A DNA stretch of 64,000 bases from Klebsiella pneumoniae (GTDB lineage Bacteria > Pseudomonadota > Gammaproteobacteria > Eutrophobiales > Eutrophobiaceae). The notes under the pieces were generated by a model, which was not told the origin of the DNA, did not search any database, and worked only from the letters and a program-made list of their open reading frames with translations. Location: positions 1-64,000 of the forward strand of contig CAMDWI010000015.1 of NCBI GenBank assembly GCA_945878555.1, in the 5' to 3' direction. Both the position numbers and the translations under genes were made by a program. Positions 1 through 13,019 of the stretch are shown one piece after another (position 1 is the first letter of the stretch; each line of letters begins with the position of its first letter).

Positions 1-150
1 ACACGCTGTGAATACATCCATGTACGCTCGAGCGCCGCTTTCGTCGCTGCGCATCCTGCTCCGCTAGAAAGTCCAGCCGTTACATCCCTGTAACGGCGCA
101 AACGGCTCCTTAACCCGCCGTTTGCCCATGCGGCTAACGGTCTTTCACAA
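1..150. repeat. Dispersed repeat: row of short hairpins
   Basis: This non-coding stretch contains several short palindromes in a row. TACAT/ATGTA with a CC spacer lies at 13-24. A 9-bp stem GCCGTTACA/TGTAACGGC with loop TCCC lies at 76-97. AACGG/CCGTT follows near 103-124. Bases 1-29 match the reverse complement of about 55363-55391 with one mismatch, so this is a repeat family. The element may continue beyond the window edge. Confidence 0.6.
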
Positions 151-271
151 TTATAACCAGACAGCTGATTCCAAACTTTACAGCAGCCTGAAACAATCTT
201 TGTAGGGAAGTAGCGGTGCCTCCTCAATCCATGCAAGCACCGCTGCGGAATTTAGGTCCCGGGTCTCCGAC

Positions 272-1255
272 CTATTTCAAATCCAGCTTGAACAGATTGA
301 TCGCGTTGGTGCGACCAATCTTCAGCTTTTCTTCGTCCGTGATCACGCTGGTGTTGTCATACCAGTCTGCAGCATCTTCCATCTGCTCGAATGGATAGTC
401 AGCACAGAAGTAGATCTTGTCATTGTCTATCGTATCGAGCGTGCAACGGAAGGCCGGGTCGTTGAAGTTGCCGCTGGTGGTGATATGAAAATGTTTTTTG
501 AAATAATCACCCAGTGGCTTGTTGCCGCGATAACCACGCGGAGAGAAACGCATGCGTGCATCAATACGCCACAGACCAAACGGGATGTTCTCGCCCAGAT
601 GACCGATACAGATCTTCAGGTTCGGGAATTCATCAAACAGACCTGAACCACACAGACGCAACGAGTGGATCGAGGTCTCGACCGCAAAGCCCCAGGGCGC
701 ACTCATCAGCCACGGATGACCGTCATAGTTTTTGGCCTGCGACGGGGCCTGCATGCGCGGGTGCAGGTAAAACGGCACATCGAGCTGGGATACAGTCGCC
801 CAGAAGCTGCGGTATTCCGGGATATCGTAATACTTGATATTGTCCGGGCTATCGACCTGCTGGAAACCATTGACCAGCGCACCTTTGAACCCGAGTTCCT
901 TCACACAACGTGTCAGTTCGCGGGCAGCCGCGTCAGGATCGTGCATTGGCAAGGCAGCCAGCGCGCCATAACGGGTCGGATGATCCGAGACGGCCTTTGC
1001 CATCCTGTCATTCGCCTTTTTTGCCAGATACATCCCCTCATCGGTATTCAATACCTTTTGCAAGGCAGGGGCATTAAGCGACAGCAGCGCAAACTCGATA
1101 CCGGTCTTGTCCATGCGTTCAATACGCTCATGATCCAGATCGAGGATCTGCTTGCTGAAAAATTCCCACTTGCCTGAATCACCCGCAAAATCACGGGCAC
1201 CCTCCAGTGTCTCCTCCAGTGAAAAGTGCTCTTCAAATGCAATCTTGCCTTTCAT
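272..1255 (-). CDS. Amidohydrolase-2 family decarboxylase (gamma-resorcylate / 2,3-dihydroxybenzoate decarboxylase-like)
   Basis: This 327-aa cytoplasmic protein has the length and layout of the ACMSD-type amidohydrolases that remove a carboxyl group from hydroxybenzoates without oxidation. The N-terminal EEH (residues 8-10), FYLHPR (H165), GHLGE (about 220) and ADYPFE (Asp near 287) supply the expected Glu/His/His/Asp metal-site residues. The last segment, KIGRTNAINLFKL, is also typical of the family. The ATG is preceded by GGCAGGA. It is the last gene of the leftward aromatic-acid cluster, 60 bp after an exported hydrolase. The substrate is inferred only; a hydrolytic rather than decarboxylating relative is possible. 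Confidence 0.82.
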   Translation of the reverse strand: MKGKIAFEEHFSLEETLEGARDFAGDSGKWEFFSKQILDLDHERIERMDKTGIEFALLSLNAPALQKVLNTDEGMYLAKKANDRMAKAVSDHPTRYGALAALPMHDPDAAARELTRCVKELGFKGALVNGFQQVDSPDNIKYYDIPEYRSFWATVSQLDVPFYLHPRMQAPSQAKNYDGHPWLMSAPWGFAVETSIHSLRLCGSGLFDEFPNLKICIGHLGENIPFGLWRIDARMRFSPRGYRGNKPLGDYFKKHFHITTSGNFNDPAFRCTLDTIDNDKIYFCADYPFEQMEDAADWYDNTSVITDEEKLKIGRTNAINLFKLDLK

Positions 1256-1315
1256 GTTCCTGCCGTCCTGATTCCGTTTATTTATGTGTGTTGGTATTAC
1301 AGTTGCCCGCCACGA

Positions 1316-2710
1316 TTACTCATAGGACTTCAGGTTATTATGGTAATACCCGCCCAGAATCGCATCCCGCCATAACTTTGCAACCGACGGGAACGTTCCC
1401 ATCGGCAAATCCTGCTGCGGAGCAGAATAACCATGCGTGCCTGCCCTGAACTGGATCACACGGACCTTCGGAGGCGGATCCATCGCAGCATACATCGGCA
1501 GGGTGACCTGCTGGTAACGTTCAAACATGTGATCGGCACTGGCCTCGGCCACACCAAACAGGATCGGTGGTACGCGTTTTACATTGGCACCCTGCAACTC
1601 GCGTGAATAGCCGATGTACTGACGGACCAGTTCTTCCGTGTCCTTGATGTTCAGCTCCAGCCGCTTTGCTGTAGCCCGGGCGGCATTTGCCAGCTGATGC
1701 ACACTGCCAAAATGCACCGGACCTTCCGACTTGAAGTTCGGCTGGGCCTTGCCTTTTTCCCAGCGGGCAAAAACGCGGTCCATCAGGTTCGGCAGCGCCA
1801 TCAACGCCTCCGGGCCTTCCAGCATCAAGGCCTCCGGGCCTTCATAACGTGCACCGTCACGCCAGGTCCTCACATGCAGACAATTAAATGGCAGGTCGCC
1901 GTATTGTTTGCCGGTCGGATTGCCAGACGAACGCGTTTGCACCCGGAAGATATAACCAAAAGGTGAGTTCTCCATGCCGACGACACCAACGATATTATCT
2001 ACGCGCTGTGACAACATGAATGCAAACGGACCACCGGTTGAATGGCCATGGATGTAAATCGAAAAATCTTTTTCAGGCAGGTTGCGTTTCATCATCTCCT
2101 TGCCACCAACCTCAATTGCCACTTCCCAGCCCGCCATACGGTTATACATCTCGGTGCCTTCCTTCGCACAGGCCAGTGTCAGCTTGCCGTACTTGATCCC
2201 GAGTGAATCATCTTCGCGGATTTCATATTGATCACGGGTAATCACGCTCTCCTTGGACCAGGCCGGCGTGCGCACCGAGCCATCTGCATGGATAGTATCA
2301 TCGGGCCAGTTACGGCTGGGGTCATGCAGGTTTATCCTGCCCGGATAGGAAAAGGTCACCACCTTGAAGCCAAACTTGCTGGCGAGCAACCTTGCCTCCT
2401 TTTCCTTTGAACGATGGTCACCCGAGCCGCCGTGTATCAGGAACAGCCCTATCTTTTTTCCATCCGGTCCGCGCGGGATTTTACTTTCATCTTCAGGCTG
2501 GAATACAGCACCGCCGACGTCCCAGTCCATTTCCACCGCACGAATACGGAAGATGTCTTCCTTGACCGTGATCGGTATGTCCGGCATGCCGAAGACTTCG
2601 TTCGAGTCCGCAATCATCTGTTCCCGGGTGACCTCGACCGGTGGCTCCCATCCCTCTGCCGCTACCACCGTCGGCAGTATAAACAGGCACAGCATCAGAA
2701 TTTTAAACAT
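1316..2710 (-). CDS. Exported alpha/beta-hydrolase
   Basis: This 464-aa protein begins with a signal peptide ending about VVAAEG, so it is probably periplasmic. An oxyanion-loop motif LIHGGSGD lies near residues 91-98. The nucleophile elbow is GHSTGG with Ser224. A candidate catalytic His lies in GTHGYSAP near the C-terminus (about 434). It is larger than a minimal alpha/beta-hydrolase, with an insert between strands. An AGGGGGA ribosome site precedes the ATG. Its place beside a decarboxylase, an amidohydrolase and Rieske proteins suggests ester or amide cleavage before uptake of an aromatic acid, but the substrate is unknown. Confidence 0.75.
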   Translation of the reverse strand: MFKILMLCLFILPTVVAAEGWEPPVEVTREQMIADSNEVFGMPDIPITVKEDIFRIRAVEMDWDVGGAVFQPEDESKIPRGPDGKKIGLFLIHGGSGDHRSKEKEARLLASKFGFKVVTFSYPGRINLHDPSRNWPDDTIHADGSVRTPAWSKESVITRDQYEIREDDSLGIKYGKLTLACAKEGTEMYNRMAGWEVAIEVGGKEMMKRNLPEKDFSIYIHGHSTGGPFAFMLSQRVDNIVGVVGMENSPFGYIFRVQTRSSGNPTGKQYGDLPFNCLHVRTWRDGARYEGPEALMLEGPEALMALPNLMDRVFARWEKGKAQPNFKSEGPVHFGSVHQLANAARATAKRLELNIKDTEELVRQYIGYSRELQGANVKRVPPILFGVAEASADHMFERYQQVTLPMYAAMDPPPKVRVIQFRAGTHGYSAPQQDLPMGTFPSVAKLWRDAILGGYYHNNLKSYE

Positions 2711-2793
2711 TTCACAGTCCCCCTAATGAGATTAACAGAATAATTATTCACGGATTTTCCCTGATGTCTGATCCTGCAAGAGGCAGTAGAACA

Positions 2794-3219
2794 TCAGGCA
2801 ACTGCCAGTTCCAGCATATGATCCAGACAGGTCTGATCCGGCGTAATCACGATAATATCGGATGAGCCCTGCAGGATCCCGCTGGTACCTCTGTGTTCTA
2901 CTACACCATGCTCCGGACGGTTGATTACAATGACCGTGACCAGTTTATGCAGTTCGATCGCATGATTATAGATGGCCGGAACCGGTGACATATCATCTCC
3001 CGGACAAGCAACGATAATAATCGACTGCAAGTGTCGGCTCGTGCCATTGCCCGGCTGTGCGGCGAGTTTTTCCAGCTCGTCTGCCCGATCCAGCAAGGCC
3101 ACACCCTTGCGTACGGCCCCGCACGCGAGCATTCGTCCACGTGGCTCCATACCAAACAAGGCAACGGTACTACCGGAAAGATCCATGTCGACTTTCCGGT
3201 GTGAAACTGTCATGTACAC
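2794..3219 (-). CDS. Hypothetical 141-aa protein, possibly a frameshifted P-loop GTPase remnant
   Basis: I do not recognise this protein with confidence. It has alternating hydrophobic strands (SIIIVACPGDD, LVTVIVINRPEHG, SDIIVITPDQ) as in a Rossmann-like or P-loop fold. DLSG could be a G3 motif and NRPE a decayed G4. Immediately upstream in another frame (start about 3319) lies GRIGNAGAGKAD, which resembles a Walker A loop. Together these could be a EutP/PduV-sized GTPase broken by a frameshift. It shares direction with its neighbours. The opposite strand also has open frames here, so even coding status is uncertain. Confidence 0.35.
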   Translation of the reverse strand: MYMTVSHRKVDMDLSGSTVALFGMEPRGRMLACGAVRKGVALLDRADELEKLAAQPGNGTSRHLQSIIIVACPGDDMSPVPAIYNHAIELHKLVTVIVINRPEHGVVEHRGTSGILQGSSDIIVITPDQTCLDHMLELAVA

Positions 3220-3583
3220 CTGGCAACTGTTTTCCGGCTACAGTATGTAACGCCATGCAGACGTCGGCTTTACCTGCCCCGGCATTTCCAATCCGGCCTG
3301 CTTTGGCTGCATTCAACATTACAACAGACTCCCTGATTAACTGGTCACAAATGAATATAGCAAACAACCGGATAAATGTAATCGCATTCGTAAAACAGGT
3401 AATGTCTCAATTTGAACTTCAATCTGCAGGCCTCCTGCAACCAATCCGATTCGGCCAGTATGCAAGAAACTGTCATGCCAGGGGAAACACCGACAGGGAT
3501 CGGGTATAACCTGATCCCTGTCGGGGCAACTACTGAAGGACTACTTTAATCTTGCATCAGTCCGGAACGACTACAGCCTGTGT
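3220..3583. other. Intergenic stretch with no secure gene
   Basis: This stretch lies between the uncertain 141-aa frame and the exported amidohydrolase. The minus strand at about 3170-3319 has an open frame with a GNAGAGK motif that may be the lost N-terminus of the downstream frame. A strong hairpin sits at 3490-3524. A plus-strand frame at 3057-3509 has no start signal or recognisable composition. Confidence 0.4.
3490..3524 (-). terminator. Hairpin downstream of the exported amidohydrolase
   Basis: The perfect 12-bp stem CCGACAGGGATC/GATCCCTGTCGG with an 11-nt loop lies about 60 bp past the leftward amidohydrolase stop. Read leftward it is followed only by the weak U-tract TGTTTCC. It is therefore a probable terminator or mRNA-end hairpin, less certain than the others. 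Confidence 0.5.
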
Positions 3584-5440
3584 TTACCACTTCCACAGCT
3601 TGCTTTCTGTCTTCACGTCCTTTTCCCACTTTGCCGTTTCGGTATTGAAGCGCAGGGTATTACCACGCAGCTGCGGGTCTTCAAATACAATCTTGCCCTG
3701 CACCATCGTCATGATTGGCTTGATGGTCGGAACCTCTTCAAGCGGCACATCCATCAGGTGCTTGTCGAGCACGGTCAGATCCGCAAGATTACCCGGTTCA
3801 ATCGAGCCGAGACCTTTCTTCATCATCGTTGGTGAGGCCCAGCGGGTCATCATCAGCAACATGGTCATGCGATCCGGTATCGCCTCTTCCGGCACACCCA
3901 TCGGGATCTTGCCATCCAGACTCCTGCGGGTCAGGAAGATATAGCCATATTCAAACGGGGAGTTCCGGACACTGGACTGGCTACCAAACTCACTGATCAT
4001 CGGTTTGATACCGGCCTTCAGCATGGAGGCAAACGGCGCATATCTGGCCTGGTATTCATCACCGTAATCGCGGGTGATGACGGTTGAAACCTCAACGGAG
4101 GCGTCACAGCTGAAGGTCACACCCAGTCTGGCGGCGCGCTCAACCTGATCCGGACGAACCTGATGGCAATGATCGGTTTGCAGTGCGAGTGCGCGGATCT
4201 TTTCAATTGGCAGTCCGGATTGTTCAATCGCGTCCTGGTAATAATCCAGCGCCTTGTCACCGGCGACATGGTGACCGGCGATGTTCAGGCCGTTCTTGAT
4301 AGCGGCCTTTAATGCGCGCAGACGCAGGATACCAACATCACGTTCATCGCTGGTGCAGCGTTCATTGTCCTTGACCTCCTGTTTCGCATTGATTGTCGTA
4401 CACATGGCAATTGCACCACCATCAAGACTGACAGGGTTCATACCTATATTCCAGAGGAAGTCGGAACCGTAACCGGCCTCATCGGGCATGCGATTGTAAT
4501 AGTCTTCCGGATTTTCGTTAAAGATATGGGCCCAACCCAGACTCCATGCCCAGCGTATCGGCATCTCACCGGCACGATCCAGCATCAACCCGGCGAGATA
4601 ACCGTTCTTCGACTGGGCATGGGTACCGTGTGTGGTGATACCGTTCTGTGCATTGACCTGTAACACGGTCTTGAATTGCGCAGCATATTTTTCCATCTGG
4701 TTCTCCATCACCAGATCGATCGCCATCGAACGCGGGAAATCGACATACTGCCTGGACCAGCCGAGTTCTGCATCTTCTACCCAGTACACATCCGGTATCT
4801 TGTTGCCGAAGTACGTTTCAAATGCCTCGATTCCTTTCGAGTTAAGAACCACAGAGGCACGGGTACGTATCATTACAGGATTCTCGGGTGCCCACTGGTC
4901 CATTACGCGGCGGGTAATCCGACGACCATACAAGGCATGGGCAATATTGGAAGGATTCATTGAAACCTCGATCCATTTACCGGGACCAATACCCTTCGCC
5001 CGCGCGCGGATGGCCGCTTCGGCCAGCGCAAAACCCTCGTCCTCTGATTTTGCGACCAGTGCAATACTGAGCAATTGCGGATCAACATCGGCTGCCCAGG
5101 GGAAACCCAGCGAGGTTTCATACAGGTGAGAGTGTGTGTCTATCAGGCCGGGTACCACCGTGCGTGAATCAAGATCCACGATCTCGGTTTCCTTGATCGC
5201 CATCGCCTTGATATCGGCATTGCTGCCAGTCGCGATGATTTTGCCGTCAAAGATCGCTATTGCCTCGACGACCGATACCTTGGTCGGATCATCATTATCC
5301 GCCGTGATGATCTTGCCGTTGACCAGAATGGTATCCGGTTTGACGAATGGCGACTGTGCCAGGACTGGCTGGGCCAGCGTGAGCATTGCCGATACTGCCA
5401 GCAAGCAGAGTGAAACTAACGAACGACCAGACTTATACAT
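3584..5440 (-). CDS. Exported amidohydrolase family 3 (YtcJ-like)
   Basis: This 618-aa protein has a signal peptide cleaved near VLAQSP. It then has the split beta-sandwich and TIM barrel of YtcJ-type metal-dependent amidohydrolases. DTILVNGKIITAD opens the sandwich and GLIDTHSHLYE carries the HxH metal motif. Further candidate ligands occur in GHHVAGD and TDHCHQ. The C-terminal GSIEPGNLADLTVLD is the usual closing motif. A GGGGGG ribosome site precedes the ATG. It lies 45 bp after the Rieske gene in the same direction. A paralogue is at 49553-51463. It probably hydrolyses an amide or ester in the periplasm; the substrate is unknown. Confidence 0.85.
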   Translation of the reverse strand: MYKSGRSLVSLCLLAVSAMLTLAQPVLAQSPFVKPDTILVNGKIITADNDDPTKVSVVEAIAIFDGKIIATGSNADIKAMAIKETEIVDLDSRTVVPGLIDTHSHLYETSLGFPWAADVDPQLLSIALVAKSEDEGFALAEAAIRARAKGIGPGKWIEVSMNPSNIAHALYGRRITRRVMDQWAPENPVMIRTRASVVLNSKGIEAFETYFGNKIPDVYWVEDAELGWSRQYVDFPRSMAIDLVMENQMEKYAAQFKTVLQVNAQNGITTHGTHAQSKNGYLAGLMLDRAGEMPIRWAWSLGWAHIFNENPEDYYNRMPDEAGYGSDFLWNIGMNPVSLDGGAIAMCTTINAKQEVKDNERCTSDERDVGILRLRALKAAIKNGLNIAGHHVAGDKALDYYQDAIEQSGLPIEKIRALALQTDHCHQVRPDQVERAARLGVTFSCDASVEVSTVITRDYGDEYQARYAPFASMLKAGIKPMISEFGSQSSVRNSPFEYGYIFLTRRSLDGKIPMGVPEEAIPDRMTMLLMMTRWASPTMMKKGLGSIEPGNLADLTVLDKHLMDVPLEEVPTIKPIMTMVQGKIVFEDPQLRGNTLRFNTETAKWEKDVKTESKLWKW

Positions 5441-5485
5441 GGAATACCCCCCGAGTTTACAAAAAATAACACGCGTGAACCAAAT

Positions 5486-6769
5486 CTATATCGAGGTATG
5501 CCCTACCCCGACCTTCACCTTGAATATATCCGCCATCTCTTCATGAAACACCTTTTCCACTGGCAGGGTGAACGAGGCCGACCTGACCCGATGTGTCTCC
5601 GGCGCTACGCCGGGAGGTGAAACACCGTCCGTTTCCAGCGCTTGCGCCGCCTTGAACAGATTCCGGCGTGCCATCATGATCGCCGCATCGGTGGACACCA
5701 GATGCTCCTTGCTACGGTTCTGTAATGGTCCCATGCTCTCCTGCAAGGACGCGTCCTGCATTGCAATACCGTGTACACCACTATAGGTGCGCCCGGACCG
5801 TTGGGCGGCGCGATCGATAAGGTAGTCATTGTCCTTGTTCATGACCGGACGATAGGTACCGGGGATCAACTCAACATGCATACCGCCACCCTTGTTCATC
5901 GTTTTGACCTCGCTGTCAGACAGCGGGCGACCGGCATGATAGGTTAAAGACCAGACAAAACAGTTTTCATCATCAATCGGCACAAAGGCATGACCATTCA
6001 TCGCGTTATGACCGTACGGCGGGATCATCGTCCACCACGGCATGATCCACTGCGACACACGCCAGTAATATTCACCCGGATCGGCATTGCGTCGGGCGCC
6101 GATCAACAGGCCACCTTCAGATTCTACAATCTCGAATTTCGGCATGCGGTCACGCTGGTATTGCGCACCACGTGTACCCTTGTGCAAGGGGTCCTTGTCC
6201 AGCTCGCCCGAATGCAGGAAGGACACATGACTCGAATCAATTCCGCCTTCCATCGCCTGCAGATAATTTGACTCCTGCCAGCGCTTGGCCACATAACGGT
6301 TTTCCGGAGGCAGCGACATCCATTCGAAGTCCGGGATTTCCGGTTGATGTTCCGGTGGCCCCATGTAGGTCCAGATCACGCCGCCCTTTTCGATACAGGG
6401 ATAGGACACCAGCTTGATGCTCTTGCAGCGATCACTGCCCGGGGGCTCTGATGGCAGCTCGACACATTGGCCGGTCACATCGAATTTCCAGCCGTGGTAG
6501 GGGCAGCGCAGTCCGGACTCTTCATTGCGGCCGAACCACAAGGAAACACCACGGTGGGCACAATAACGATCCATCAGACCAAGACGTCCCTGGGTATCAC
6601 GGAATGCAATCAGCTCTTCCGATAACAGCTTGACCCTGACCGGGTCACAATCCGGTGCAGGCAACTCCTCTGACAATAGAAACGGAATCCAGTAACGCCG
6701 CATCATCGAGCCCATGGCGGTGCCCGGTCCTGTGTGTACGATTACGTCCAGCTGCTGTAATTTATTCAC
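5486..6769 (-). CDS. Rieske non-heme iron oxygenase, phthalate 4,5-dioxygenase-like
   Basis: This protein resembles the single-component (alpha-only) oxygenases of the phthalate/vanillate group. The Rieske cluster ligands are C70 and H72 (CAHRG) and C89 and H92 (CPYHGW), with the usual 16-residue spacing. The mononuclear iron site is visible as GGIDSSHVSFLH. The GTG start at 6769 is chosen because GGGGGGAG precedes it; a TTG six codons upstream is the alternative. These enzymes need a separate reductase, and none is encoded nearby. Regiochemistry and substrate cannot be read from sequence, but an aromatic acid fits the context. Confidence 0.85.
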   Translation of the reverse strand: MNKLQQLDVIVHTGPGTAMGSMMRRYWIPFLLSEELPAPDCDPVRVKLLSEELIAFRDTQGRLGLMDRYCAHRGVSLWFGRNEESGLRCPYHGWKFDVTGQCVELPSEPPGSDRCKSIKLVSYPCIEKGGVIWTYMGPPEHQPEIPDFEWMSLPPENRYVAKRWQESNYLQAMEGGIDSSHVSFLHSGELDKDPLHKGTRGAQYQRDRMPKFEIVESEGGLLIGARRNADPGEYYWRVSQWIMPWWTMIPPYGHNAMNGHAFVPIDDENCFVWSLTYHAGRPLSDSEVKTMNKGGGMHVELIPGTYRPVMNKDNDYLIDRAAQRSGRTYSGVHGIAMQDASLQESMGPLQNRSKEHLVSTDAAIMMARRNLFKAAQALETDGVSPPGVAPETHRVRSASFTLPVEKVFHEEMADIFKVKVGVGHTSI

Positions 6770-6873
6770 TTTGTACTCCCCCCGCAAAATTCATTAACAC
6801 TGTTGTATATACTCTCACCATGCTTTCGTGATTTCAATCTATCTAATCGGTGATTCGACAGTTTGAGTCAAAC

Positions 6874-6935
6874 GCTGCGGGAGGCCCGCCCTCGGGCTGA
6901 TTTGTCGCGGCGGGGTTGCCGCTCCTGCGACAGCT
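6874..6935. repeat. REP/BIME-like intergenic repeat
   Basis: This GC-rich palindromic block contains GGAGGCCCGCC (6880-6890) followed by CGGGCTGAT. It is followed by an inverted second half GTCGCGGC...GCCGCTCCTGCGAC. The GGAGGCCCGCC core recurs at 10161-10171. The arrangement is like REP pairs of gammaproteobacteria. It lies between two leftward genes, upstream of the Rieske gene. Confidence 0.6.
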
Positions 6936-7016
6936 GTATTCAAACCAGGCAACTACCCGTCAGTGTGATTGCAACGCACAAAAGCGGTAACAAAAACTTT
7001 CACAAAATTTCCCTGA

Positions 7017-8030
7017 TTACCTCTGCATCAACAGACCATTTTGTAGTTTTTCCAGCATCGGCGTCCACACGTTTTTCTCTGTAAAATAGCGGATTGCACC
7101 CGGATGGAACGGTATCAAGGGATTGGTCATCGTATTTTTCAACGTCCATGCCTTTGCCTCTGCGTGCAGTGCACCAAATTCCTCAAGATTATCAAACAGC
7201 GTCGAGGTCATCAGATAGACCTGCTCCTCCGGTGCATCGGCAGAAGCGACGAGATACGTATTCAGGCCAAATACGACCATTTCCTTTTCCTGCCCCTCAA
7301 AGTGCCCCGGAGGAATTGACCGGGTAAACATGTAGTCCGGGAGCGAGGCCTGCATTTTTTCAACTGTTTCGGGGTCCAGATACAGCGGGTCAACCAGCCC
7401 GTCCCTGAACATCTGCACAACGGCCGGCAGGCGTAAACCACCCGGTATTATGATTCCATCTACCGTGCCAGAGGCGATATGGCGCAGTGACTCTTTTGTG
7501 TCCTTGGTCGAGACGATACGCAAATCGGTCAGCCCGGCAGCCTTGATCAGTGCATTCGATAGCTGTGCCATTTCCGGTAAGGCCGGACGTGCACCGATTA
7601 TGATCTTGCCATTCAGATCTGCGAGCGTCTTGATGTTCGAGTCCCGGCGTACCAAGATAAACCGCAAGCTGGTCTGGCCCTGCGCTATCAAACCTATCTG
7701 TGCGCGTTCCTTGAATGGCGGGATGGCCTGAAATCCATCGACCGCCGCACCGGAGTTGGTGATGGCATAATCTATCTTGCCCGCGACCATCGTGAAGATA
7801 TTTGCGTAGGAACCACCAATCGGCTCAACCGACATATTGATATTGGCATTCTTGTGCAGCAACTCACCCAGACCGTTTGCTATCACATAATAGGTACTGC
7901 CCACACTGGAGGTTCCCATTCTGGCAATGGATAACGAGGGCTCGGCGGCCTGCGACACCGGCCCGAAATATAGCAGCGCACAGGTCAGCAGGACAGATAA
8001 CAGTCGGTCACGCTTTAGCTCAGATAACAT
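7017..8030 (-). CDS. TAXI-family TRAP transporter solute receptor
   Basis: This 337-aa protein has a signal peptide ending near SQAAEP. It then has the TAXI receptor pattern: SIARMGTSSVGSTYY near residues 34-48 and ITNSGAAVDG near 110. The middle segments DLNGKIIIGAR and GTVDGIIIPGG are also typical. It would bind the substrate in the periplasm and hand it to the fused permease encoded just upstream; only 2 bp separate the two genes. TAXI systems import small organic acids, so an aromatic or alicyclic acid processed by the neighbouring oxygenases is the likely cargo. Confidence 0.87.
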   Translation of the reverse strand: MLSELKRDRLLSVLLTCALLYFGPVSQAAEPSLSIARMGTSSVGSTYYVIANGLGELLHKNANINMSVEPIGGSYANIFTMVAGKIDYAITNSGAAVDGFQAIPPFKERAQIGLIAQGQTSLRFILVRRDSNIKTLADLNGKIIIGARPALPEMAQLSNALIKAAGLTDLRIVSTKDTKESLRHIASGTVDGIIIPGGLRLPAVVQMFRDGLVDPLYLDPETVEKMQASLPDYMFTRSIPPGHFEGQEKEMVVFGLNTYLVASADAPEEQVYLMTSTLFDNLEEFGALHAEAKAWTLKNTMTNPLIPFHPGAIRYFTEKNVWTPMLEKLQNGLLMQR

Positions 8031-8032
8031 CT

Positions 8033-9949
8033 TCAGCTCCGGATTTTTCGGGTATAGATAAATCGTTGTGATACCAGTGTCAGTACCAGTAGACCCAGGC
8101 CGATCAGTTTGTCATCCGGTGTAATCAGCATAAAGGCGATCACCCCGAGCACAATACGGGAAAACACGCCCAGATGATTAAAGGCATACCCTCGTATTGC
8201 CGCCGCCAGTGTAACCGCGCCGATGGCCGCCGTACCAAAGGCGATCGCAATGTGCGTAGGCGTACCCTTCATCAACAGTGCCTCATCCAGTACAAAGGCA
8301 AACGGGATGATAAACGCGGCGATACCCACCTTGACCGCCTCCCAGCCGGTTTCCCAGAGACGTGAACCACTGATCGAAATGGCCACAAACACGGCGAGAC
8401 ACATCGGCGGGGTAAAGAACGAGGCCAGGCCCCAGTAGATCACAAACAGGTGCGCGGCCACATCGGACACGCCGAGTGCCACCAGTGCCGGTGCCATCAG
8501 TGTCGCCAGTGTCAGATACGCCGGTATGGCGTCCAGCCCCATACCGAGGATCAGGCTGGCAACGCCGATCATCGCGAGCGTCATGATCAGGTGTCCATCC
8601 GACAATTCCAGCACAAAGGTCGACAGTTTTACACCGACACCGGACAACTCCAGTGCGCCTATCATCAGACCTACCGAGGTGGTGATAACGACGATACCGA
8701 CCCAACGCAGCACAGTCTGGTGACAGGCCCCAACAATATTCGGCCAGGTGACCCAGCTGCTGCGGTCGCGGGTAAAATAACTGCACACTATCGCGACGAC
8801 AGTGGCATAGACACCGGCAATCTCCGGAGGTAAGGCACTAACAAACAGAAAATACAGCAAGGCCAGGATCGGTGCCACGTATCGCGCACCCTTTGCCAGC
8901 AGCGGCCGCAACTTCGGTAATTCGGACGCGGGCAACAGCGTCACATCGTCCTTGTACGCCTGGAAATGGGTCGAGGCAAACAGCACCAGATAATACAGTA
9001 TCGCTGGCAAGGTTGCGGCGATCACCACTTCTGCATAACTCTTGCCTATCCAGTCTGCCATCACAAATGCTATCGCACCCATGACCGGTGGCAGGATCTG
9101 CCCGCCAGTCGAGGCAACAGATTCTACTGCACCCGCAAATGCCGGTTTATATCCTATAGATTTCATTAACGGTATGGTAAACACACCGGTTGTGGCGACA
9201 TTACTGGAGGGTGAACCGGAGATCGAACCGAACATCGCACTCGACAAGACTGCCGCCTTGGCCGCCCCACCCTTGCTCCTGCCGGTCAGAGCCATCGCTA
9301 CATCAATACACCACTGTCCCGCACCGGTCACCTGCATGATGGCGCCGAAAAAAAGATATACGATGATGACCGAGCTCGCTATCTGTAACGGTTGTCCAAA
9401 AAAGCCCGCCTCACCCGCATAGGCCGCGTAGAGGATCCGATCCAGCGAACCACCCGCCCCGTAGAGCACGCCCGGCAAATACTGCTGGAATACCGTAATC
9501 AGTACAAAAAAGATAATCAGCGCGGGCAGGATGATACCGGCCGCCCGTCGCACCGCCTCCAGCACACCTATCGCCATGAGACAGGCGAGCACAATGCCCT
9601 TCGTATCCAGATAACCATACATTGCATACTCATCCAGACTACTGTTAAAGAAGATCACGTACAGCGAGCCCATTAATAATGCACCCAGAAATACATAATT
9701 AATGATCGGCACACCTGCAATGGCGTATTTGCCGGAATGCTTGTCTGCGCGGGTGTGTCCGGGTTGGGTTGAACCACTGTCTCTCGCCAGAAAAATAATC
9801 AGACCGGCACACGTCAGGCTGACCGCAGACAATATCTGTCCGGGGATGAAAAAGCCGAGCCAGGCAGGGATGTTCCCTACGACAATCAAATGGTAGATAA
9901 CGATAAGTGTTGCGAAGATGGCCGGTCTGGAATAGGCAGTCTGGTTCAT
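8033..9949 (-). CDS. TRAP transporter permease, fused 4TM/12TM (DctQM-like)
   Basis: This 638-aa integral membrane protein combines the small DctQ-type and large DctM-type subunits, as usual for TAXI systems. About 16 hydrophobic segments are visible. The DctM signatures GSISGSPSSNVATTG near residue 243 and ASTGGQILPPVMGAIAFVM near 283 are present. It is the first gene of the leftward cluster and faces the Pht5-like gene across a 325-bp divergent region. It is probably co-transcribed with the receptor gene that follows it directly. Confidence 0.9.
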   Translation of the reverse strand: MNQTAYSRPAIFATLIVIYHLIVVGNIPAWLGFFIPGQILSAVSLTCAGLIIFLARDSGSTQPGHTRADKHSGKYAIAGVPIINYVFLGALLMGSLYVIFFNSSLDEYAMYGYLDTKGIVLACLMAIGVLEAVRRAAGIILPALIIFFVLITVFQQYLPGVLYGAGGSLDRILYAAYAGEAGFFGQPLQIASSVIIVYLFFGAIMQVTGAGQWCIDVAMALTGRSKGGAAKAAVLSSAMFGSISGSPSSNVATTGVFTIPLMKSIGYKPAFAGAVESVASTGGQILPPVMGAIAFVMADWIGKSYAEVVIAATLPAILYYLVLFASTHFQAYKDDVTLLPASELPKLRPLLAKGARYVAPILALLYFLFVSALPPEIAGVYATVVAIVCSYFTRDRSSWVTWPNIVGACHQTVLRWVGIVVITTSVGLMIGALELSGVGVKLSTFVLELSDGHLIMTLAMIGVASLILGMGLDAIPAYLTLATLMAPALVALGVSDVAAHLFVIYWGLASFFTPPMCLAVFVAISISGSRLWETGWEAVKVGIAAFIIPFAFVLDEALLMKGTPTHIAIAFGTAAIGAVTLAAAIRGYAFNHLGVFSRIVLGVIAFMLITPDDKLIGLGLLVLTLVSQRFIYTRKIRS

Positions 9950-10274
9950 TCCGGGGAAATCCTGGCTAGATTACAAAGACAATGGCTGAGGGTAACAGGC
10001 GGTGCCTGGCAGATTCATGATCAAGCAGCCTCTGCATCGCAATAAACAACATGGAAATCCCCCCGGATATATAACTGTTAAACCACTGGCGCAGGAAGTT
10101 TAACACTTTTCCCGATTGTCTCAACAAACGGATATTTGCCAGGCGTCAACCCAGACCGCAGGAGGCCCGCCCCGGGCCGATAGTATGACTGCATCTTCCC
10201 AAACCGGACGACCTTATATATATTCACACCAAGGCTATACCACTTTCTGTTTACAGCTAACCCGGAGATTATTC
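9950..10274. other. Divergent intergenic region between the two aromatic-acid operons
   Basis: No gene is supported here; the long open frame that runs through 10116-10274 lacks a start signal. The region must hold the promoters of both operons. AT-rich TATATATATT at about 10213 could be part of a rightward promoter, but no convincing -35 box was found. A REP-like unit lies at 10157-10182. Confidence 0.5.
10157..10182. repeat. REP-like unit, second copy
   Basis: GGAGGCCCGCC at 10161-10171 followed by CCGGGCCGATA matches the core of the repeat at 6874-6935. The unit can fold on itself as GGCCCG/CGGGCC. It lies in the divergent promoter region. Confidence 0.55.
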
Positions 10275-11261
10275 ATGGCAAACCTGAAGTTGAGTGTCGG
10301 ATGTGGTCCCTATGATCGTACAGAGGCGTTACGCAGCGGTATCGTGCAGCCGGAAGGCATCGACCTCACCTATGTGCCGGTGCAATCGCCCCCGGAGATC
10401 TTCGCCCGCATGATCAAGAACAATGCGTTTGATTTCGCCGAGATGTCGACCGCGATGTACCTGACGCTGCGTGCCAAGAATGAATTCCCGTTTATCGCAC
10501 TGCCGATCTTCCCCTCGAAGGTATTCCGCCACGGCTTTATCTTTATCAACACGAAGTCCGGGATCAAGACGGCGAAGGATCTCGAAGGCAAGCGTGTTGG
10601 TGTACCGGAATACCGCCAGACCGCCGCAATCTGGATCAAGGGCATCCTGCAGCATGAATATGGTGTGAATCTGGATTCGATCCACTGGTTTGAGGGCGGC
10701 GCCAATGTCCCGCGTGAACCGGACATACTCGACCTGCGCCCGAATTACCAGGTGGATATCGAGTTCATCGGCCCGGAAAAATCCTTGAACCAGATGCTGG
10801 AGGCCGGTGAGATCGACGCGATGATCGGCGCACGCAAACCGTTCTCGCTCGACACCAGCCCGCATGTAAAACGTCTGTTCCCGGATTACCGCGAGGTGGA
10901 GAAGGCATTTTACAAAAAGACCGGTATCTTCCCGATCATGCATACACTGGTCGTCAACGAAGCGCTCTACCGCGAACACCCGTGGGTCGCCGAGAGCATG
11001 TACAAGGCCTTTGTGCAGTCGAAAGACTGGTGTCTGGAGCAGATGCGCTTCTCCGGCACGATGCGCTACACCCTGCCCTGGCTGTTTGCCGACATCGACG
11101 AGATGCACGACGTGTTCGGCGCCGACCCCTGGGCCTACGGCCTCGAACCAAACCGGGCCACGCTGGAGGCATTGATCATGTATCTGCACGATCAACAGTT
11201 CCTGGAAAAACGCGTCCGTGTCGAAGACATGTTTGCACCTATCGTGACGAGTAATGAGTAA
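10275..11261 (+). CDS. 4,5-dihydroxyphthalate decarboxylase-like protein (Pht5 family)
   Basis: This 328-aa protein has no signal peptide and has the periplasmic-binding-protein-like fold of the Pht5 decarboxylase family. VPVQSPPEIFARM, FDFAEMSTAMYL, LEGKRVGVPEYRQTAA and EIDAMIGARKP are characteristic. The start at 10275 is chosen because GGAGA lies just upstream and homologues begin with this MANLKLSVGCG segment; the frame itself extends 53 codons further upstream. It overlaps the dioxygenase alpha gene by 8 bp, so the two products should be made together. In known phthalate pathways the enzyme gives protocatechuate. Some family members may act on other acids. Confidence 0.8.
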   Translation: MANLKLSVGCGPYDRTEALRSGIVQPEGIDLTYVPVQSPPEIFARMIKNNAFDFAEMSTAMYLTLRAKNEFPFIALPIFPSKVFRHGFIFINTKSGIKTAKDLEGKRVGVPEYRQTAAIWIKGILQHEYGVNLDSIHWFEGGANVPREPDILDLRPNYQVDIEFIGPEKSLNQMLEAGEIDAMIGARKPFSLDTSPHVKRLFPDYREVEKAFYKKTGIFPIMHTLVVNEALYREHPWVAESMYKAFVQSKDWCLEQMRFSGTMRYTLPWLFADIDEMHDVFGADPWAYGLEPNRATLEALIMYLHDQQFLEKRVRVEDMFAPIVTSNE

Positions 11262-12513
11262 GGTCGATACACAAACGGACAGCTACACCGACCTCATACG
11301 GGAGACGCCGACTGACTTTTCCGTGCACAACCGCGTCTATACTGATCCTGCGATCTTCGACGCTGAGATGCATCACCTGTTTGAGAACGGTTGGTGTTAT
11401 GTCGCACACGAGAGCGAGATCGAAAAGCCGGGCGACTTTCGCACCTCGGCGATAGGCCGTATTCCGGTCATCGTCAGTCGCGGTGATGATAACCAGGTCT
11501 ATGTAAACATGAACGCCTGCCGCCACCGCGGCACGCTGGTCTGCCGCGAGGAGCGCGGCAATACACGCTACTTTACCTGCCCGTACCACGGATGGTCGTA
11601 TCACAAGGACGGCAAGCTAAACCACATCACCGACCGCGACAATTTTCCGGACGGCTGGGGTGAGGACATTACCGGACTCATCCCTGCCGAACGCGTCGCC
11701 CTCTATCGCGGCATGATCTTCGCCAGCTTTAACAAGGACGTGCCGACGATTGAACAGTATCTCGGGCCACTGAAGACCTATGTCGATTACTGGTTCGACC
11801 ATGCGCTGAAAGGCACGGTCAAGGTATTGAAACCCTGGCGCGCCACCTACCAGGGCAACTGGAAATATCAGCTGGAAAACTCTACCGATGGCTGGCATGC
11901 CCGTTATGTACACATCTCTGCGTTAAAGACGATCTCGCATTACGGCACCTACGCCAGCAACACTGGCTGGAGCGGCTGTACCCGCGGTTTTGATGGTGGC
12001 CACGGGATCCTCGAACGCCCGCGCACCGACATCCCGCCGGACCTGCAACCGGACTTTGAACAGTTCAGATTGGCCTTGCGCACCCATTATGGCGAGGAGC
12101 GTGGTAACCGGATGTTTGTCCGTCGCCATATCACCCTGTTCCCGAACATCCAGTTGATGGAGTTCAAGCTGCGCGTGATCCAGCCGGTCAGCGTGGATCG
12201 GACCATCGTTTACGAGTTTCCGGTCGAACTGGAAGGCACCGATGCGGTATTCAACAAGGCGATCCGCACGCGGTTGCTGAAGGAGATCTCCATTTCGTCC
12301 GGCTCGCCCGTGTCCGGCATGGTCAATGCAGACGATGTGGAGATCTATGCTCGCACCCAGTCCGGACTTGCCTCCGGGCAGATGGAATGGATACGCCTCG
12401 CACGCGGGATCCATCGCGAGGTCGAGGAACGCAAACACGAATGGAGCGGACAAGACATGGATGAACTGCCCCAACGCTCTATCTATCGCGAATGGGCGAG
12501 GCGGATGAAATGA
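11254..12513 (+). CDS. Ring-hydroxylating dioxygenase alpha subunit (benzoate/anthranilate type)
   Basis: This 419-aa Rieske oxygenase large subunit has ligands C89 and H91 (CRHRG) and C109 and H112 (CPYHGW). The catalytic domain carries TDGWHARYVH, matching the Asp-Gly-x-His-x4-His iron site of BenA/AntA relatives. The following ATGA overlap with the small-subunit gene supports an alpha-beta enzyme. It would insert two hydroxyl groups into an aromatic acid, needing electrons from a reductase not present in this window. It differs clearly from the phthalate-type Rieske protein at 5486-6769, so the cluster has two separate oxygenases. Confidence 0.88.
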   Translation: MSKVDTQTDSYTDLIRETPTDFSVHNRVYTDPAIFDAEMHHLFENGWCYVAHESEIEKPGDFRTSAIGRIPVIVSRGDDNQVYVNMNACRHRGTLVCREERGNTRYFTCPYHGWSYHKDGKLNHITDRDNFPDGWGEDITGLIPAERVALYRGMIFASFNKDVPTIEQYLGPLKTYVDYWFDHALKGTVKVLKPWRATYQGNWKYQLENSTDGWHARYVHISALKTISHYGTYASNTGWSGCTRGFDGGHGILERPRTDIPPDLQPDFEQFRLALRTHYGEERGNRMFVRRHITLFPNIQLMEFKLRVIQPVSVDRTIVYEFPVELEGTDAVFNKAIRTRLLKEISISSGSPVSGMVNADDVEIYARTQSGLASGQMEWIRLARGIHREVEERKHEWSGQDMDELPQRSIYREWARRMK

Positions 12514-13019
12514 CCACTACCGTACTGACCCGCAGCGCCGCCGAAGACCTGCTTTACGTTGAGGCGCAGTTAATCGACGAGGACAAACTCGAACAATGGC
12601 TGCAACTGTTCACAAGCGATGGCATCTACTGGGTCCCCAGCGACGAACACGCCGACCCCGAGGTCGAGACCTCGATCATCCACGACGATACCTTGCAACT
12701 TGAGAAACGCATCTTCCAGTTACGCAACAAACACCTGGCACAGGACCCGCGCTCACGCACGGTCCATCTCGTCTCCAATGTGCAGGTATTCCCCGGCGAC
12801 AAACCGGATGAAGTCATCATCCACTGTAACCAACTGATCACAGAAATGCGCCCCGGCGATCACCAGTACCTGCAATCCGGCCTCGGTCAACCACGCACGT
12901 TTGCTGCCCGCTGCAAATATATCGTCCGCAACGTAGACGGCGAATGGCGCATCGCGCAAAAACTAGTCCTGCTGATCAACCGCGACCTGCCGTTGGAAAA
13001 TATCAGTTTTATCTTGTAG
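12510..13019 (+). CDS. Ring-hydroxylating dioxygenase beta subunit
   Basis: This 169-aa protein has the SnoaL-like cone fold of dioxygenase small subunits: EAQLIDEDKLEQWLQLF then DGIYWVP near the N-terminus, and SNVQVFPGDK and FAARCKYIVRNVDGEWRIAQK in the second half. The start at 12510 is chosen because it overlaps the alpha stop codon as ATGA; an ATG six codons upstream is possible. It probably forms an alpha3beta3 complex with the preceding product. It closes the rightward operon, and the composition becomes AT-richer directly after it. Confidence 0.87.
   Translation: MTTTVLTRSAAEDLLYVEAQLIDEDKLEQWLQLFTSDGIYWVPSDEHADPEVETSIIHDDTLQLEKRIFQLRNKHLAQDPRSRTVHLVSNVQVFPGDKPDEVIIHCNQLITEMRPGDHQYLQSGLGQPRTFAARCKYIVRNVDGEWRIAQKLVLLINRDLPLENISFIL

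Follow-up and report, generated by a model that had tools for sequence, protein, structure and literature searches.

This study focused on a group of genes for the catabolism of aromatic acids at the left end of the window, the whole stretch of 64,000 nucleotides that was analysed, where two independently inherited modules abut that probably feed phthalate-like aromatic dicarboxylates to protocatechuate. From the gene content, the conservation of the genes as two units, the position of the lig genes in two congeners (G007 and G008), and the conserved catalytic and carboxylate-binding residues, all of which are observed, we infer the substrates, the reaction steps, the reductase and the joining of contig C5 to the window. 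On the plus strand (module B), the BenAB oxygenase would hydroxylate an aromatic dicarboxylate of the phthalate type, after which the Pht5-like protein would decarboxylate the resulting dihydroxy-dicarboxylate to protocatechuate, which would then undergo 4,5-cleavage via LigAB, LigC, LigI, a tautomerase and LigK, predicted to be encoded just left of the window. On the minus strand (module A), exported hydrolases may release a meta-dicarboxylate-like aromatic acid that the TAXI-TRAP system would import, the isophthalate-dioxygenase-like oxygenase LIGXA would dihydroxylate, and the decarboxylase at 272–1255 would trim at the stage of a hydroxybenzoate-type intermediate. Electrons for the oxygenases would come from a distant, shared reductase. 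What appears to be new is that an alpha/beta Rieske oxygenase of a divergent kind is paired with a Pht5-type decarboxylase while the customary dihydrodiol dehydrogenase is missing; the rest is ordinary in outline.

Gene content and conservation of the two strands

The features of the region are listed in Table 1. All genes named in the earlier note are intact, lie at or near where it placed them, and have family matches that bear out the families it named. The start positions of LIGXA and of the Pht5-like gene were corrected from orthologues. A small protein absent from the earlier gene list (2794–3186) was added; it is 31% identical over 137 aa to a protein of the same operon in G007 (tblastn E 5e-12), has a relative in G008 as well, and gave no match in a Pfam search. 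The plus-strand genes are tightly packed, the alpha subunit start overlapping the Pht5 stop by 8 bp, and the beta subunit start overlapping the alpha stop by 22 bp.

Table 1. Features at the left end of the window, with strand and supporting matches.
Feature	Position	Strand	Remarks
Dispersed-repeat copy	1–190	.	Contig edge; bases 1–141 match the C5 terminus exactly
Gamma-resorcylate (2,6-dihydroxybenzoate) decarboxylase-like metal-dependent decarboxylase	272–1255	-	PF04909 (Amidohydro_2)
Exported alpha/beta-hydrolase-like protein (GHSTGG)	1316–2710	-	
Small conserved operon protein	2794–3186	-	tblastn
Exported Amidohydro_3 protein	3584–5440	-	PF07969; 74–77% orthologues in two congeners
Isophthalate-dioxygenase-like alpha-only Rieske oxygenase LIGXA	5486–6769	-	PF00355 + PF19301 (LigXa_C)
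TAXI-type TRAP solute-binding protein	7017–8030	-	TIGR02122, 164.5 bits, above cut-off
Fused TRAP permease	8033–9949	-	TIGR02123, 518 bits, above cut-off
Pht5-like (4,5-dihydroxyphthalate decarboxylase family) protein	10275–11261	+	229 bits, 35% to 9jp7
BenA-like Rieske oxygenase alpha subunit, divergent alpha/beta clade	11254–12513	+	
BenB-like Rieske oxygenase beta subunit	12492–13019	+	PF00866

Orthologues of LIGXA, the Amidohydro_3 protein, the TAXI and TRAP proteins and the exported hydrolase (61–81% identity) are grouped at G008:C2 and G007:C13, at both of which a Zn-dependent dehydrogenase lies beside the LIGXA orthologue. The Pht5-BenA-BenB genes of these congeners are found elsewhere in their genomes, beside lig genes. 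Since in each congener the counterparts of the two strands occupy different loci, the present neighbourhood joins two separately conserved sets, and the single cluster that had been proposed is not supported. The earlier remark that the mixture is unlike known operons holds insofar as the gene order fits no classical phthalate, terephthalate or isophthalate operon, but what it described consists of two independently conserved units. The gene of this genome that best matches the congener dehydrogenase, on C41, was rejected as its counterpart, as it belongs to another cluster and is 83% identical to a copy on C1 of G008 but 41% to the one adjacent to LIGXA.

In the window the genes form an unbroken divergent array with compatible functions, and LIGXA-type and Pht5-type genes lie within about 5–11 kb of one another in plasmids of Sinorhizobium, Caballeronia and Peribacillus. 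It could be argued from this that they form a single pathway for one substrate of an unusual kind, for example an aromatic polyacid in ester or amide form, with hydrolysis outside the cell, TRAP import, two Rieske oxidations and two decarboxylations. The separation of the two strands in both congeners makes this unlikely, as does the failure to find an orthologue of the 272–1255 decarboxylase at the congener loci, where there are only 24% relatives; position alone thus links this decarboxylase to module A. Catabolism of an aromatic (poly)carboxylate fits the gene content, but an esterified or amidated substrate is supported only by one exported hydrolase and one exported amidohydrolase.

The contig edge, ring cleavage and electron supply

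Base 1 of the window is base 1 of contig C15, and the first 141 bp, which are identical to the final 141 bp of C5, are part of a dispersed repeat (window 1–190). A genome-wide comparison gave 59 matches to it, of which 18 extend over about 141 bp or more. Because the repeat is common to four contig ends (the ends of C5 and C39, and the starts of C15 and, at 99%, C6), sequence alone permits two pairings. Near its right end, C5 carries genes for LigK, a LigI-like protein, 4-oxalomesaconate tautomerase, a LigC-like protein, LigB and LigA, and the orthologues of the congener lig set lie at C5:175–183k (70–85% identity). Three of the proteins pass their NCBIfam equivalog cut-offs: LigA (TIGR02792, 157 vs 108.6), LigK (TIGR02798, 369 vs 304.5) and the tautomerase (NF033377, 517 vs 440). 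In the congeners, the protocatechuate 4,5-cleavage set (LigA, LigB, LigK and 4-oxalomesaconate tautomerase) is found about 2.4 kb from Pht5-BenA-BenB (n = 2). The order in both is LigI-tautomerase-LigC-LigB-LigA-EamA, one TAXI gene and then Pht5-BenA-BenB, followed by orthologues of genes located further right in the window. No gene of C6 or C39 matched the compared congener stretches at 40% identity or more. The pairing of C5 with C15 is favoured because the genes at the end of C5 run into Pht5-BenA-BenB in both congeners. If C5 is so joined, as repeat and synteny indicate, LigA would end some 2.6 kb to the left of the first base of the window.

The reported lack of a ring-cleavage gene is, then, most likely an effect of the contig edge, as the lig set adjoins Pht5-BenA-BenB in the congeners and is presumably adjacent here. 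The set resembles the protocatechuate 4,5-cleavage (lig) pathway in having LigA, LigB, LigC-like, LigI-like, tautomerase and LigK genes that are adjacent in congeners, and differs in that the window does not include these genes, which are placed towards the end of C5. A second LigB-family match is present at C5:160.6k, and the genome has no intradiol dioxygenase. The case shows how a pathway cut by a contig edge can seem devoid of ring cleavage.

The genome search that had been advised for a reductase and ring-cleavage genes was fruitful for the latter, but gave a single reductase candidate. Genome-wide searches for NAD_binding_1, Fer2 and Rieske domains placed no gene with either of the first two, and no additional Rieske gene, within the window, in line with the earlier observation that no reductase lies there. 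In these searches only one protein, encoded on C18, had both of the first two domains. It adjoins genes that we read as truncated-globin-like and Rrf2-like, and because of these neighbours the C18 protein may serve in nitric oxide defence.

The isophthalate-dioxygenase-like oxygenase and its minus-strand neighbours

The closest solved relative of LIGXA is 9INA (477 bits, about 50% identity), the isophthalate dioxygenase IPDO_KF1 of Comamonas testosteroni KF1 (PMC12445078). In that enzyme, replacement of R234 or H257 abolished activity, and replacement of residue 249 together with V178A broadened specificity (PMC12445078). LIGXA carries the Rieske CXH-CXXH site (CAHRG...CPYH at 76) and an iron-binding DxxHxxxxH motif (D184, H187 and H192). 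Of ten pocket positions compared, five are kept (G172, V178, R234, I246 and H257), including both carboxylate anchors, R234 and H257, and five are changed (T175S, L198A, F249Y, I294M and F333I). In a tree with Pht3 as outgroup, LIGXA falls on the isophthalate dioxygenase side, the order of sub-clades not being fixed by this tree. The earlier label of phthalate-type needs correction accordingly: the nearest solved structure is an isophthalate dioxygenase, and LIGXA is not a Pht3-type phthalate 4,5-dioxygenase. The canonical phthalate 4,5 operon was also rejected as a model, LIGXA being 31% identical to a Pht3-type oxygenase and closer to IPDO, and no Pht4 having been found. Because LIGXA matches Pfam LigXa_C, and 5-carboxyvanillate decarboxylases (4icm/4inf) share a superfamily with the 272–1255 protein, LIGXA might be read as an O-demethylase or other LigXa-kind monooxygenase acting on lignin-derived dimers or methoxybenzoates, rather than as a dicarboxylate dioxygenase. 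With an isophthalate dioxygenase as nearest solved relative and both carboxylate-binding residues kept, we regard such an activity as quite improbable.

As a probable dicarboxylate dioxygenase, LIGXA is best compared with the iph operon of Comamonas, whose oxygenase it resembles in overall sequence and in R234, H257 and V178. In contrast to that operon, the surroundings of LIGXA lack an SDR dehydrogenase, a VanB reductase and an IclR regulator, and TRAP replaces TTT transport. On Rhodococcus plasmids, a 59% relative of LIGXA is accompanied by genes for a Zn-dehydrogenase, a VanB reductase and a small protein, and a terephthalate-type operon adjoins; more generally, relatives on plasmids of Rhodococcus, Arthrobacter, Caballeronia, Phyllobacterium and Rhizobium occur with combinations of Zn-dehydrogenase, small protein, reductase/ferredoxin and IclR regulators. 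Two further relatives of isophthalate dioxygenase, both carrying R at residue 249, are encoded at C10:76–95k and C10:106–124k; the latter region also encodes a Pht5-like protein, as well as an alpha/beta hydrolase that is 61% identical to one in a Phyllobacterium plasmid cluster. Three such relatives in one genome thus vary naturally at position 249 (Y, R and R).

The 272–1255 protein shares 50% identity with the gamma-resorcylate decarboxylase 3s4t (347 bits), and its residues E8, H10, H165 and D286 align with E8, H10, H164 and D287 of 3s4t, which we take to be metal ligands. The exported hydrolase has four copies in the genome (the three paralogues being 47–49% identical) and 73–75% orthologues in the two congeners, whereas a sample of 369 genomes from the class yielded no relatives. 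One paralogue match (L073) has an internal TAA. A single-sequence structure model of the hydrolase was too poor for use (mean pLDDT 33.6). Another paralogue lies in a second cluster, at C10:1–15000, together with two Amidohydro_3 genes and a Pht5 gene whose product shares 61% identity with 9jp7.

The Pht5-like protein and the alpha/beta oxygenase

The Pht5-like protein is 35–39% identical to canonical phthalate-operon Pht5 (9jp7 and its 78% Polaromonas relative), and 39–44% to Pht5 of plasmid phthalate-type operons. The low identity to the canonical enzyme speaks against the role proposed for module B, a different gene of this genome, on C10, being closer to 9jp7 (61%). Pfam and NCBIfam give only binding-protein models for the Pht5-like protein, and its homologues on plasmids frequently carry the annotation of ABC substrate-binding protein, so that it could be imagined as a cytosolic NMT1/PBP-fold protein that feeds substrate to BenAB without decarboxylating it. 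This is very unlikely, as fifty positions are invariant among the Pht5-like protein, 9jp7 and other relatives (YDR, E56, FRH, Y113, T116 and FPIMH being invariant across nine sequences that include the first two), and homologues are encoded alongside Rieske and Gfo/Idh genes in operons of the phthalate type. As a putative decarboxylase, it shares its family and its likely product, protocatechuate, with the o-phthalate 4,5-dioxygenase pathway (Pht3-Pht4-Pht5 / OphABC). The differences are the modest identity to canonical Pht5, a window oxygenase that is alpha/beta and not Pht3-type, and the lack of Pht4: when the genome was searched with Pht4, the sole match was the LigC-like gene (24%), and no Pht4-type dihydrodiol dehydrogenase was found. 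BenAB would call for such a dehydrogenase if it makes a dihydrodiol; one possibility is monooxygenation of a hydroxyphthalate by BenAB, which would dispense with the dehydrogenase.

The alpha subunit forms a small clade with its counterparts in G007, G008 and two Chloroflexota, with 53–89% identity inside and at most 37% to the other sequences compared. Among 53 genomes of the order, a close match was present only in this genome and the two congeners. Like the terephthalate (TphA2A3B) and benzoate (BenABC) systems, it is an alpha/beta Rieske oxygenase, and the Tph route also ends in protocatechuate. However, it is only 28% identical to a TphA2-like protein and has no PdxA-type TphB alongside, while its score against the NCBIfam BenA equivalog (227.1 bits) is far below the cut-off of 780.95, and no BenC lies alongside. 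The genome has a second Pht5-Rieske pairing at C3:184–203k, where a divergent Pht5-like gene (43%) lies beside another alpha/beta Rieske pair (29%).

Four of the five loci of the clade have a Pht5-type gene next to the oxygenase genes, and searches of open-access literature found nothing relevant to this pairing. It may be suggested, tentatively, that BenAB and its Pht5-type partner form an undescribed route from aromatic di- or tricarboxylates to protocatechuate in Gammaproteobacteria and Chloroflexota that are uncultured. In such a route, the oxygenase would hydroxylate the ring and the decarboxylase would finish the conversion, no dihydrodiol dehydrogenase being needed in between. The results point to a clade of alpha/beta Rieske oxygenases, of which we found no description, that travels with a Pht5-type decarboxylase.
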